From positions 1-26,645 of the IMG/VR virus record IMGVR_UViG_3300032561_000109: DNA of 26,645 bases; one strand, 5' to 3'. The notes under the pieces are model-generated. The model was given only the letters and a program-made list of their open reading frames with translations, did not search any database and was not told the origin of the DNA. The stretch comes from a virus. Positions 4,649 to 21,293 of this stretch are shown here, piece after piece (the stretch's first letter is position 1; every line of letters starts with the position of its first letter). Both the position numbers and the translations under genes were made by a program.

Positions 4649-4836
4649 TTCCATTCCCCCATGTTGCCTAGTTTGTATTGCGTATAAAAATCATCTAGTA
4701 ATACTTTACTAAAGTTTTTGTCTGTAATGTAATCTCTAAACCAACTTAATCCTTTTTTGTGGCGTAAGTGCAACAAATACCTTACAGCGCATTTATGCTT
4801 GTGTTCTAGATCGCAGTTCCCTTTGTTTGATGACAT
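4603..4836 (-). CDS. Hypothetical 77-residue protein
   Basis: Small basic protein beginning MSSNKGNCDLEHKHKCAVRY, with a helical middle and a GNMGEWKCWK motif. An AAGGA lies close before ATG 4836. It begins 44 bp inside the DUF1376 gene and overlaps the next gene by 46 bp. Short phage proteins with a C..R..L...QxxxGNxGEW pattern occur beside replication genes (recalled; not verified). Four cysteines and several histidines would permit zinc binding, but the spacing is not a recognised finger. Function unknown. Confidence 0.55.
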   Translation of the reverse strand: MSSNKGNCDLEHKHKCAVRYLLHLRHKKGLSWFRDYITDKNFSKVLLDDFYTQYKLGNMGEWKCWKNTLLGQQGLGI

Positions 4837-5593
4837 AATCCTTCATTTCGTAGTAGCTTCCAAAACGAGCTAATTTTGGGTCTTTACCGCACTCAATTTT
4901 ATATGCTTCTTCAATTTGCTCATTTGTTACTAACGGAAGTTGTTTGTGTCTAGTAACTTCTTCTTTTACCCACTCAGCTTTGAATCCTACCCAACTGCGT
5001 TCACAACAAGTTTGCAGGGCATCTGAGAGAGTTATTTTAGCCTTTTCAGCCTCTCGTATCAAACCTTTCAAAGCCGTGTCTGTAAGAGGCTTTTTGGCAG
5101 CTTTACGGACTTTTAAATAATCATTCCATAAAGACACATCAACACCTTTAGGTGGTGCTATGTTTTTATTAGTTGTTGTTAAAGGTAAAGGTGATGGTGA
5201 AGGTGATGGGCATTGCTTAAGCATTGCTTGTGCATTGCTTGTAGCATCATTTTCTTGTTTATCCCATCTAGCTTGTGCGCCTTTTAAAGCCCTATCGTGC
5301 ATTTTGGCTTTATTTTGCATTGCAAGGTTTAATTCTTTTTCAACTCTAGCGTGAATCCAATAACCATCTGAAATGCTAAAAAATTGCTTAAGCATTGCTT
5401 TAGCATTGCCCCAAGCATCAGGCGATAATTTAGAAATCTGAGCTAAAACTTGATCATTGTCTGGCAATCGACCAGATCGCCAATAATCCATAAGAAGCAA
5501 TAAATATGCTCCGTGCTGTTCGGTGGTAAGTCTAGCTGTATCTGCTAGATAGTCCCCAATATAAAGGGGCATCCATATATCTGCTTTTTGCAT
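4793..5593 (-). CDS. DUF1376 (YdaU-like) replication-type protein
   Basis: A 266-residue protein. The N-terminus (WMPLYIGDYLADTARLTTEQ, followed by YLLLLMDYWRSGRLPDND) is a clear DUF1376 domain to about residue 110, a winged-helix-like domain found where phages encode replication initiators. A Pro/Ser linker PSPSPSPLP lies at about 130-138, and a C-terminal domain has WNDYLKVRKAAKKPLT, ALKGLIREAEKA and RSWVGFKAEW, as in phage O-like initiators. Start is ATG 5593 with GAGGAA at 5-base spacing. The gene carries two iteron clusters, like the origin in lambda O. No helicase gene is seen nearby, so the helicase may be from the host. Confidence 0.75.
   Translation of the reverse strand: MQKADIWMPLYIGDYLADTARLTTEQHGAYLLLLMDYWRSGRLPDNDQVLAQISKLSPDAWGNAKAMLKQFFSISDGYWIHARVEKELNLAMQNKAKMHDRALKGAQARWDKQENDATSNAQAMLKQCPSPSPSPLPLTTTNKNIAPPKGVDVSLWNDYLKVRKAAKKPLTDTALKGLIREAEKAKITLSDALQTCCERSWVGFKAEWVKEEVTRHKQLPLVTNEQIEEAYKIECGKDPKLARFGSYYEMKDYVIKQRELRSRTQA
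5210..5240. repeat. Iteron cluster 1: three 9-bp repeats, 11-bp period
   Basis: GCATTGCTT occurs at 5210-5218, 5221-5229 and 5232-5240, spaced exactly 11 bp, in the DNA for residues about 118-128 of the DUF1376 protein, just before its Pro/Ser linker. An 11-bp period is not a multiple of three, so it does not come from an amino-acid repeat. About one helical turn per repeat is typical of initiator-binding iterons. Function inferred. Confidence 0.65.
5381..5410. repeat. Iteron cluster 2: three related repeats, 11-bp period
   Basis: AAATTGCTT (5381-5389), GCATTGCTT (5392-5400) and GCATTGCCC-type (5403-5411) again lie at 11-bp spacing, 171 bp from cluster 1. They encode residues about 62-71. 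Both clusters are in the same reading frame and encode NA(K/Q)AMLKQ, so a duplicated peptide partly explains the likeness between clusters, but not the 11-bp period inside each. Confidence 0.55.
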
Positions 5594-17589: not shown

Positions 17590-18036
17590 TCACAACAGTT
17601 TCGTAAAGACTTTATCCACAAACTTGTACCCCAAATACTCAAAAAGAGCTGAATTGTCTGAATGAACCTTTGTGTTGTAAATTACCCTGTTAATTCCTTG
17701 ATTTTTTAATGTTTTTTCTGCAAATTGAAACAATTTCAAACCAGTTCTGCCTTTTCTGTATTCTTTTTTTAAAAAATAAATATCTTCAAAGGCTGTCAAA
17801 CAAGTTCTGTAATGCAAGTGTGGGGCTATAAAAAAGATAATGTAACCTATTAATTCTTCATTATCTTTACAAGTAATAAATTTAAGTCTATTAATGTCTA
17901 ATAAAGATTTATAAGCATCCCAGTCAGGATCAAGAGGAAACTCCTTTGTTACAGATAATTCCTCATAATGGTCTTTAATAACTTCCTGTAATTTAGGTAA
18001 GTTCTCAAGCCAATCGTCATCTTTATATTCAAACAT
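17590..18036 (-). CDS. GNAT-family acetyltransferase
   Basis: A 148-residue protein with GNAT features: DNEELIGYIIFFIAPHLHYR (strands 2-4), FEDIYFLKKEYRKGRTGLKL with the acetyl-CoA pyrophosphate-binding loop near R94-G99, and the closing VIYNTKVHSDNSALFEYLGY region. It transfers acetyl groups; substrate unknown. GNAT genes of this type are found among structural genes of many podoviruses and may modify a virion or host protein. It overlaps the preceding gene by 8 bp. Confidence 0.85.
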   Translation of the reverse strand: MFEYKDDDWLENLPKLQEVIKDHYEELSVTKEFPLDPDWDAYKSLLDINRLKFITCKDNEELIGYIIFFIAPHLHYRTCLTAFEDIYFLKKEYRKGRTGLKLFQFAEKTLKNQGINRVIYNTKVHSDNSALFEYLGYKFVDKVFTKLL

Positions 18037-18265: not shown

Positions 18266-20661
18266 CAATTTTCCCCTTCTGATGCTTTTAAGTTAGCAGA
18301 TACTATTACGGCCTTAACAGGATCAGTAACAACTACTTCAAAAATACGATCCCTTGACCATCCAAGTCTGCGCCATATTGCACGATTAGTATATTTACCA
18401 ATTCTGCCAATGCCTGTCCAATGCTCATTACTCCAAGTTGAGCCACCATCGTTTGACCAACGTAGCATAGCTTGTGGATTGGTAGTGTCAAAAGGGACTA
18501 CTACGCTGCCTGGCTGAACAATTAATACGTTATTAGGTGTAACTGAAATAACAATGCCTGGAGCAATAATATAAGGCGATTGAACTGTTGTTGTTTGTCC
18601 TGGAGTTGGCGGGTAAACAGTTAATGTATTGCCATAAGCAATAGTTATGCTATTACCTGCGGCAATTGTATAAGGTGATGGTTCATAAGAATTTGTTGAT
18701 GTATTTACATAAATAGGAGCAGGTGTTCCTGTAGTTGTAGCAATTGAGCTATTGTTTGCGCCAGCCGCTATTCCTGAAAGCCCTACTCCTGGCTGAAATT
18801 GAATCTGAAATTCATCAAAATACTGACGTTGTAAGTCTGTAACTAAATGAGGTGCTCTACGCAATCTGCGAATTTCATCACCATTATCAGTATAGTTTGT
18901 AGGGTCTAATTGGTAAATATGACCATTTTCCCAATCGCCAACTAATACGGAATCATTAAATACAGTAGCGCAGTTAGAACGATGACGATGATAGATATTG
19001 TTTGTATCGACATATAACCATTTGTGCCAGAGTTGTGTAGTAACGTCATAAGCCCATGTTAAATCAATTGTAGGGAATGAAAGCACATAGACTTCGTGAC
19101 CTTCAAGCTGATATGTATAAGCTACAGCATCTTCAACATATTGGTTGACTAAGGTGTTTTCTACAGCGTGGGTTGAAATTCTTTGTGGGAAATAGCCATT
19201 CATCATTACAATTTCTGATTGCCCACGATTATTTTTAGCCAAATATGCAAAAGAATTGCCAAGTCTAGCTACAGAAAACTTGGCTGCTAAACCATGTTGA
19301 CTAGAACTGCCTGGAATTCTTTGAAATGGAAATGGGAATGTTCCTACATCAGACCATACTTCTGAAGTAGTTTCACCCAATAGATAGACTTGACCATGAT
19401 CTGTAATTAAAGATACTAAATTATCAGGCCCAGTAAACTTGCTTGCATAACTTAAACCATAAGTAATTGGGCTAAGAAGATTAGAAGCTGCCCATTGTTG
19501 GGTATTAGGATCGTTGTAAACAAAGTAATTATCTACAACATCGACTGAAGAACCGCCTGTAAAAGCACCATCAGAACTAGGTAATACTGAAAACTGAACG
19601 GCATACATTGTTTCAGACGAAACAGTTTGACTAAAATTAATAAGATAGTTACCTGTATCGCCTGTGCCTGTGCCTGTTGTAAGCGTTAGGGTTAACCCTG
19701 TGCCAGCACCATTTGTACTTGTAGATGCAGGATTTAAAGGAACAGATGTATAAGCACCAGCAAACGTCATAGAAAGCCCTGAAACCACGCCACCTGTCGT
19801 TATTGCTGTTACTTTGTATGTAGCTGGGCTACTGCCATAAACACCGCCCAAAACCGTTATAAGGTCATTTAAAGCGTATCCTGTACCACCGCTTGCAATG
19901 GTTTGACTTAATACTGTGCCAGAGCCTAAAGCGGTAATAATAGTATTAGGGGTAACCCCTGTGCCTACGATTGTTTGACCTGGGTATAAAACACCACTTG
20001 TTACGGCTGTAACAGTCAAAGACGTTGTCCCAATAGAACCTGTAAAGATTGCTCCACCGCCATTAGTGTTTAAAAGCTGGGATGTTGATATGGTGTATGA
20101 AGTATTAATGTTATATGTGCCTACACCGCCTGATCCTGAACCAAAGCTAGTAATAACCGTTTCTAAACCTATTCCTACGCCATATAAAGATTGACCTACT
20201 TTAATTGTTCCTTCTCTGACTTGAGAAACAGTTAGAGTAGTTCCTGAAATTGTGCCTGTAAATGAACAAGCATCAGGCTGAGAAATTCTCCATGTATAAC
20301 GATAAGTTCCGTCAACAATATAAACGTTAATACCGTTATCTGTAATGCCTACTTGACCTGTACCGCTATTTAAAATACCAATTACATAAGGCACATAAGA
20401 AGAATCCATTGCATAAACATATTGACCGCAAACTGCGACCATGTATGTTCCACCAGCTAATGTTCTCATTCCCCTAACAGGGGATTGCGCTGATAACGCT
20501 ACAATTGAAGTGAGGCCAGGAGTAGGATATAAAGCAACAACGCCTCTTGAACCTTGAGCTTTAGTTGGGTCAATTTCAGGCCGCCAATTGATACATTCTT
20601 GGCTGTCTTGATACAAAGATGGTGCTTCGTAACTAGCCCCAACAAAACCAAAATCTGCCAT
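18265..20661 (-). CDS. Packaged-DNA stabilisation protein, P22 gp10-like
   Basis: A 798-residue tail-hub protein. Ends typical of the family are seen: DFGFVGASYEAPSLYQDSQE at the start and, from about residue 365, GSSVDVVDNYFVYNDPNTQQ and later a beta-propeller-like body. gp10 plugs the head-tail channel in P22. Between about residues 130 and 355 lies an inserted region of two copies of a small beta domain (pattern FTGxIxxTxLTVxxVxxGxI...GQxIxGxG), the second itself split by a GGTGY-type domain at about 250-335. It begins at TAATG overlapping the homing endonuclease stop, whose last codons hold its ribosome site (AAGGAT). Confidence 0.85.
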   Translation of the reverse strand: MADFGFVGASYEAPSLYQDSQECINWRPEIDPTKAQGSRGVVALYPTPGLTSIVALSAQSPVRGMRTLAGGTYMVAVCGQYVYAMDSSYVPYVIGILNSGTGQVGITDNGINVYIVDGTYRYTWRISQPDACSFTGTISGTTLTVSQVREGTIKVGQSLYGVGIGLETVITSFGSGSGGVGTYNINTSYTISTSQLLNTNGGGAIFTGSIGTTSLTVTAVTSGVLYPGQTIVGTGVTPNTIITALGSGTVLSQTIASGGTGYALNDLITVLGGVYGSSPATYKVTAITTGGVVSGLSMTFAGAYTSVPLNPASTSTNGAGTGLTLTLTTGTGTGDTGNYLINFSQTVSSETMYAVQFSVLPSSDGAFTGGSSVDVVDNYFVYNDPNTQQWAASNLLSPITYGLSYASKFTGPDNLVSLITDHGQVYLLGETTSEVWSDVGTFPFPFQRIPGSSSQHGLAAKFSVARLGNSFAYLAKNNRGQSEIVMMNGYFPQRISTHAVENTLVNQYVEDAVAYTYQLEGHEVYVLSFPTIDLTWAYDVTTQLWHKWLYVDTNNIYHRHRSNCATVFNDSVLVGDWENGHIYQLDPTNYTDNGDEIRRLRRAPHLVTDLQRQYFDEFQIQFQPGVGLSGIAAGANNSSIATTTGTPAPIYVNTSTNSYEPSPYTIAAGNSITIAYGNTLTVYPPTPGQTTTVQSPYIIAPGIVISVTPNNVLIVQPGSVVVPFDTTNPQAMLRWSNDGGSTWSNEHWTGIGRIGKYTNRAIWRRLGWSRDRIFEVVVTDPVKAVIVSANLKASEGEN

Positions 20662-21293
20662 TAGATTACATCCTTATAGGCTTTACCATCACGAATTCTA
20701 CGAATGGTGGACTCTCCAACCCCATATTCTCTAGCAAGCATAGCAATATTCCTATAGCCAACACGTTGACGGATTTCTAATACTTGTTCAGAAGATAAAA
20801 CACGCTTAACAAAAATAGGTTTGCCAGATTTAGCTTGGCTCATTTTTTTCTTAGACTCTTGCGATACTTTTTTACCTAACTTATTTTTGTTCCCAACTTG
20901 GGAATGTGACATTTTTTGGCGAGATTCTTCTGTATGTTTTTTACCCTTAAAAGTCATTCCCCAAGTTAAAAACCCATGATTGTTACCTTTTAACTTAGAT
21001 TTATGTTCTTCTGTATGTTTATAACCAGATACACCTTCACCGCCATTAGTATGGTTAACTAATTGAATACCACGTCTGCGATAAATATCAATACATTCCA
21101 TTTCAGCAAGAAAAGCTAATTCTTCATTTAAATGATCTGCAATCTTTTCAGCAACAAAACCATGCTTTGCAACTACACGATGCCAATATTGATTACGCCC
21201 TTTGCTTTGATTTAAGCGTGTGCCTTTGCCTTTGCCAACATAGAATATTTCGTTGGAGTCAGCTTTGCGGTGTTGATATATATAAAATGTCAT
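20661..21293 (-). CDS. GIY-YIG homing endonuclease with NUMOD motifs and HTH
   Basis: A 210-residue free-standing homing endonuclease. The N-terminal GIY-YIG domain has YIYQ (4-7) and YVGKG (18-22) as the two half motifs, R26, an acidic pair in AEMECID near E66 and LVNHTNGGEG. NUMOD3-type DNA-binding motifs follow (YKHTEEHKSKLKG, KKHTEESRQKMSHS, KVSQESKKKMSQAKSG), then a C-terminal helix-turn-helix VGYRNIAMLAREYGVGEST. It spreads by cutting unoccupied copies of its site. It lies between the gp4-like and gp10-like genes, which are adjacent in P22-type phages. Confidence 0.9.
   Translation of the reverse strand: MTFYIYQHRKADSNEIFYVGKGKGTRLNQSKGRNQYWHRVVAKHGFVAEKIADHLNEELAFLAEMECIDIYRRRGIQLVNHTNGGEGVSGYKHTEEHKSKLKGNNHGFLTWGMTFKGKKHTEESRQKMSHSQVGNKNKLGKKVSQESKKKMSQAKSGKPIFVKRVLSSEQVLEIRQRVGYRNIAMLAREYGVGESTIRRIRDGKAYKDVI

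Follow-up and report, generated by a model that had tools for sequence, protein, structure and literature searches.

The DUF1376 (YdaU-family) protein encoded in the window, by which we mean the whole 26,645-base stretch of viral DNA that was analysed, very probably initiates phage replication from an origin contained in the gene that encodes it, in a manner resembling lambda O and ori-lambda. This reading, drawn from sequence comparison and structure prediction, rests on DNA-level constraint in the codons concerned, on motif classes that follow the N-terminal domain, on the exchange of whole cassettes between relatives, on an AT shift at synonymous sites, on the predicted fold, and on the helicase or loader genes that neighbour the gene in relatives. 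From these data we infer that the protein binds the iterons, opens the strands and recruits a helicase, that the site functions as an origin and that a second repeat cluster has a role. The features are collected in Table 1.

The protein matches PF07120 over aa 7-88 (E=5.7e-23; 81.5 bits against a Pfam gathering cut-off of 30.1). Among the PHROG families, the primosomal protein family phrog_6451 (3e-37) covers its N-terminus, and the replication initiation O-like family phrog_678 (2e-16) matches aa 130-215. AlphaFold2 gave a mean pLDDT of 86.5 for the full-length protein and 89.3 for the domain alone. The predicted winged helix consists of helices 24-40, 47-54 and 58-71 and strands 73-75 and 78-80, and a long helix (aa 82-116) joins it to a linker that is devoid of secondary structure in the model, with pLDDT below 50 at aa 124-129 and 137-141. 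A Foldseek search against the PDB returned mainly winged helices (MarR, NadR, BusR, CRP and DnaD) at weak E values of 0.03-0.5, and a sequence search for a relative of solved structure found none. DUF1376 was the sole Pfam match at E up to 0.01; neither the lambda O N-terminal domain nor an iteron-plasmid Rep domain was matched. By analogy with O-like proteins, the C-terminal part may recruit a helicase or its loader.

Table 1 Observed, predicted and proposed features of the DUF1376 gene (positions in the window)
Feature	Position	Strand	Basis or remark
DUF1376 (YdaU-family) gene, 266 aa, proposed replication initiator	4793..5593	-	Pfam and PHROG
Helical C-terminal part, aa 153-266, proposed helicase/loader recruiter	4796..5137	-	AlphaFold2 and PHROG
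Disordered inter-domain linker, aa 117-152	5138..5245	-	AlphaFold2
Right border of exchanged cassette (left border is the start codon)	5153..5187		Gene nt ~406-440; blastn between relatives
AT-rich stretch, candidate unwinding element	5154..5193		Up to 73% AT; coding strand almost G-free
Hexamer array CACCTT/CACCAT (Ser-Pro repeat)	5180..5206	-	Period-6 score 12; gene nt 387-414
Iteron cluster 1, GCATTGC cores at 5210, 5221 and 5232	5210..5240	-	Proposed initiator-binding sites of the origin
Cluster 1 on the coding strand, ACAAGCAATGC ACAAGCAATGC TTAAGCAATGC	5210..5240	-	
Lone GCATTGC core between the clusters	5317..5323	-	Overlooked in the original prediction
Winged-helix domain, aa 12-80	5354..5560	-	AlphaFold2
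Codons of helix 58-71, winged-helix recognition-helix position (assigned by analogy)	5381..5422	-	AlphaFold2
Iteron cluster 2, cores AAATTGC, GCATTGC and GCATTGC at 5381, 5392 and 5403	5381..5411	-	Recognition-helix codons

Two trios of repeats lie within this gene, each with an 11-bp step throughout. Their positions and spacing agree with the original prediction. GCATTGCTT occurs exactly at four positions (5210, 5221, 5232 and 5392), and the remaining copies in cluster 2 are degenerate (AAATTGCTT at 5381 and GCATTGCCC at 5403). The GCAWTGC core is a palindrome around W. A count over the full record revealed that this core is concentrated in the gene, with six of its eight occurrences at 5210-5409 (Poisson P ~3e-14 against the rest of the record). 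A one-mismatch scan of the whole window gave 18 matches where 13.8 were expected, which is unremarkable alone; it is the clustering and phasing that carry the repeat signal. Cluster 1, which had been placed at the border between the domain and the linker, indeed falls in codons of the disordered linker in the AlphaFold2 model. The statement that coding cannot explain the period needs care, since three 11-bp units make 33 bp and close in frame. When the protein was fixed and codons were resampled from window usage, 12 of 5000 trials produced an 11-bp repeat that was as good as that of cluster 1. The lone core at 5317 shows no obvious phase with either cluster.

The constraint is not confined to this gene. 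A search of viral, phage, plasmid and genome collections with conserved DUF1376 patterns yielded 354 DUF1376 ORFs, which were reduced to 173 non-redundant genes, a set that is no census of the family. Synonymous codons were permuted within each gene, with the protein and the codon counts held, and p up to 0.01 was taken as significant. By this measure, period 11 was significant in 44 of the 173 genes (25%; 1.7 expected), compared with 5 of 378 neighbouring ORFs (1.3%) that served as control. Other periods were significant in 17 genes (period 7), in 20 (period 23) and in 0-2 (periods 8, 10 and 13), and the majority of significant non-3 repeats lay at aa 105-135 counted from the domain start. 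The 11-bp repeats were found chiefly in the linker that follows the domain.

The genes with GCAWTGC (class I) number 51 and hold 200 copies, in which the core is read in all three codon phases and is spaced at 11, 12 and 23 bp. Neighbouring copies have an identity of 0.83-0.98 over the core and of 0.34-0.51 over the spacer, with 0.70 at the central W, and the class I linkers contain 145 GCAWTGC where codon permutation leads one to expect 30. The use of all codon phases, together with the retention of cores but not of spacers, argues against both peptide selection and slippage. When synonymous sites were compared in relatives, the DNA repeats were found to be retained beyond what the peptide requires. 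Relatives that keep the peptide but lose the 11-bp repeats were also sought, and this is not the pattern that we saw; in this position, other classes carry other repeats and other peptides. Slippage in a tolerant linker, which would make the repeats functionless, is suggested by the microsatellite-like hexamer array next to the iterons and by the tolerance of disordered linkers for expansion. We regard it as hardly credible, because the cores are conserved and the spacers are not, because the same core occurs in distant genes such as that of Plectonema phage L165, because motif class follows the N-domain, and because sites also lie within the codons of a folded helix.

These helix codons hold the second cluster. 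In the helix-3 region (aa 50-75) of the 51 class I genes, GCAWTGC occurs 24 times against 4.5 expected (reached in 0 of 200 permutations). The corresponding region of class II genes contains AACGNNCGTT 12 times against 1.6 expected (again 0 of 200), its copies being CGTTG at steps of exactly 11 bp, and in genes that are not of class II, the helix-3 region is not enriched in the class II motif. Class-matched sites are thus enriched 5-8 fold in recognition-helix codons. In addition, the helix-3 DNA resembles the gene's own linker (score of at least 13) in 25 of 167 genes; among mismatched pairs the share is 2.4%, and control segments give 1-2 genes. The match is in the same codon frame in 20 of these 25, and in gene L344 it extends to 29 of 29 identical nucleotides. 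The enrichment and the resemblance to the own linker together indicate that both clusters are class-matched and are related by in-frame copying.

It might be argued that the linker copies the recognition-helix peptide for the sake of protein function and that the DNA repeats are a by-product, and the helix/linker likeness in a common frame is what such a duplication would leave behind. A caveat of this kind had accompanied the original prediction. The in-frame peptide shared by the two clusters is real and recurs in other classes, but duplication fails as a full explanation: with the peptide fixed, codon permutation still leaves a strong excess at both clusters, which places the constraint at the DNA level, the linker copies stand in three codon phases at 11- and 12-bp spacing, and the layout is kept in classes with unrelated peptides. 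We therefore consider it very improbable that the peptide is the sole cause. A more speculative possibility, which we advance tentatively, is that the origin is self-seeding. The DNA of the recognition helix would itself be a binding site, from which the linker origin would be built and refreshed by in-frame copying of codons; binding specificity and origin sequence would thus be matched within one gene and would diversify and be swapped together.

The motif classes, which we defined by eye from the same 173 genes, include at the same place CGTTSAACG (23 genes), TGCAAATGCA-like repeats, TGCGwwCGCA, ATCGCAATGCG, AACCAWN heptamers and others, and 67 of the 173 genes fall outside every defined class, many with degenerate versions. 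The class follows the N-terminal half of the protein. Of 174 pairs with N-domains at least 70% identical but unrelated C-termini, 165 have the same iteron class; of 312 pairs with C-termini at least 70% identical and N-domains below 50% or unrelated, 35 do, the random expectation being 27%. The blastn alignments delimit the exchanged segment. The DNA of genes L010 and L018 aligns at 90% identity as far as the start codon and again, at 91%, from nt 440 onward, and L010 and L040 are 95% identical before the start codon and 92% after nt 429-440, both pairs being unalignable in between, so that three different cassettes are found within nearly the same flanks. Conversely, the gene in the window and its relatives L017, L029 and L257 are alike from the N-domain through the iterons and the array, as far as nt 406-429, and diverge beyond this point. 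Hence the N-domain travels together with its repeats as a single cassette. In a rhizobial class (L167, L212, L220 and L248), TGCAAATGCA-like repeats are followed by a conserved GTGATACG(C/G)GCG, with no hexamer array.

Since module borders lie just past the array in several pairs, the repeats could be conceived as a recombination site for swapping initiator halves. That seems scarcely plausible, as the repeats stay with the N-domain and are not the same in the cassettes that were exchanged, which leaves no shared crossover sequence. A recombination site is accordingly disfavoured as the main role of the repeats; the peptide-only and slippage explanations are disfavoured by the codon permutation and the core/spacer pattern.

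The sequence next to cluster 1 may also bear on initiation. An AT-rich stretch adjoins the cluster on its C-terminal side, and a shift of this kind is visible at synonymous sites in relatives. In 96 genes of high GC3, this value falls from ~0.75 to 0.38 over the linker (aa 110-150) and then recovers, and serine is encoded by TCA at a frequency of 0.35 in their linkers versus 0.09 elsewhere. Tandem arrays of 5-8-bp units, mostly of 6 bp, lie near the iterons in 127 of the 173 genes (hexamer-type in 107), with G making up 5.8% of their coding strand, and in class I the array begins 0-34 bp past the last core. The choice of codons in these arrays is not random, since period 6 was significant in 62 of the 173 genes under the synonymous-codon permutation. 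The hexamer array always keeps one codon phase, so that peptide selection or slippage could explain it, and codon phase, being single, was uninformative as a test. One might guess that the array has a role in unwinding or in helicase loading. Arrays of the types TCACCT, ACAGAT and AACCAAG are found beside the iterons in most relatives, and the type tends to follow the iteron class.

The paired sites are equally restricted at the level of whole genomes. Exact pairs of GCAWTGC at 11 bp occur in 10 of 15 class I phage records, at 13 places which, when assigned to genes by hand coordinate arithmetic, all lie within the DUF1376 gene; we had looked for a motif common elsewhere in relatives and did not find it so. 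Directly downstream of the gene, 10 of 70 relatives encode a DnaC-like loader, 9 encode a P-like loader, 6 a primase/helicase and 5 a DnaB helicase. Provided that these family counts do not overlap, the next gene is of helicase or loader type in ~30 of the 70; examples are L165, where DnaB follows, and L166 and L170, each with a loader. In the window, neither a helicase nor a loader could be recognised among the genes beside the DUF1376 gene, and this phage may use host functions, or the gene may be missing from the record. Cumulative GC skew, proposed earlier as a check, gave no support to an origin here: the sign change near 5-6 kb coincides with a change of gene orientation, which confounds it, and the minimum of the record lies near 23 kb. 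We therefore set GC skew aside as origin evidence.

Autoregulation is common among winged-helix proteins, and the iterons could instead be operators at which the DUF1376 protein blocks its own transcription, with the origin located elsewhere. A protein bound at cluster 2, well inside the gene, could indeed act as a roadblock. This alternative is unlikely, given that no GCAWTGC lies upstream of the gene, that the linker sites adjoin an A/T-shifted stretch, and that a helicase or loader is often encoded next, as at lambda ori. Autoregulation and origin function are compatible and not exclusive.

An origin within the initiator gene could work as follows. The N-terminal winged helix, likely as dimers, would bind short near-palindromic iterons (here GCAWTGC), which are one helical turn apart in the linker codons, on one face of the DNA. 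The assembled complex would then open the adjoining G-poor, AT-rich tract, and the C-terminal part would recruit either the loader or the replicative helicase itself, in the way that lambda O acts at ori-lambda. Cluster 2 may be bound by the same protein, which could form a larger complex, loop the DNA to cluster 1, or throttle transcription of the gene in autoregulation.

Origins inside initiator genes are already known. In lambda and in Stx phages, as described in PMC7466680, iterons lie in the middle of the O gene with an AT-rich tract on their C-terminal side. DUF1376 genes share with lambda O the division of the initiator into a DNA-binding N-terminal part and another at the C-terminus, mid-gene iterons followed by an AT-rich tract and, in many relatives, a helicase-loader gene downstream; in the same repeat scan, lambda O gave periods 20 and 23 at aa 117-141. 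They differ in iteron spacing (11-12 bp, against 20-24 bp in lambda) and in the Pfam family of the N-domain, even though the C-terminal part does match the O-like PHROG family, and they have many motif classes, with arrays of hexamers or heptamers adjoining their iterons. It is thus more appropriate to propose that the DUF1376 protein works like lambda O than to count it as a member of that family. For lambda, the text consulted mentions neither a class-matched second cluster nor copying in frame. SPP1 gp38 likewise binds direct repeats inside its own gene (oriL), and that system also has an AT-rich element for unwinding and a helicase of the DnaB type with a loader; the likeness is one of description, and the text of PMC6316719 consulted reports neither a DUF1376 domain nor this layout. 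The novel elements here are palindromic iterons at 11-12-bp spacing, a second cluster of them and a cassette that can be swapped. Our search of the open-licence literature found neither a report of an origin inside a DUF1376/YdaU gene nor any function given for the family, DUF1376 being named in five papers, once in each.

The same family includes ydaU of the E. coli K-12 Rac prophage (b1359, NC_000913; L371), which is followed by ydaV. The reported origin of the Rac prophage is oriJ. The ydaU linker contains TGTT cores at gene nt 392, 425, 437 and 448 (spacing 33, 12 and 11) and, after them, a short ACAGAT/AAAGAT run (gene nt 392-460 region). These iterons are weak, since three TGTT were equalled by 34 of 2000 permutations, and oriJ is not annotated in the Rac stretches viewed. 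We offer the ydaU linker as a statistically weak prediction for oriJ and a concrete candidate for the Rac origin. As a search seed, ydaU retrieved near-identical E. coli copies of little diversity.

The analysis gives a testable function to DUF1376/YdaU, a widespread uncharacterised family of phages and prophages, and would make the replication origins of many phages predictable from sequence alone. The co-evolution of initiator and origin could be studied naturally on the matched combinations of N-domain and motif class. The second cluster raises a question that lambda does not, namely why a recognition helix should be encoded by DNA that contains its own site. Elsewhere in the record, two ORFs among the structural genes were noted by eye: the start of one (20661-21293) resembles a GIY-YIG type nuclease, and a small one (17590-18036) resembles a GNAT acetyltransferase.
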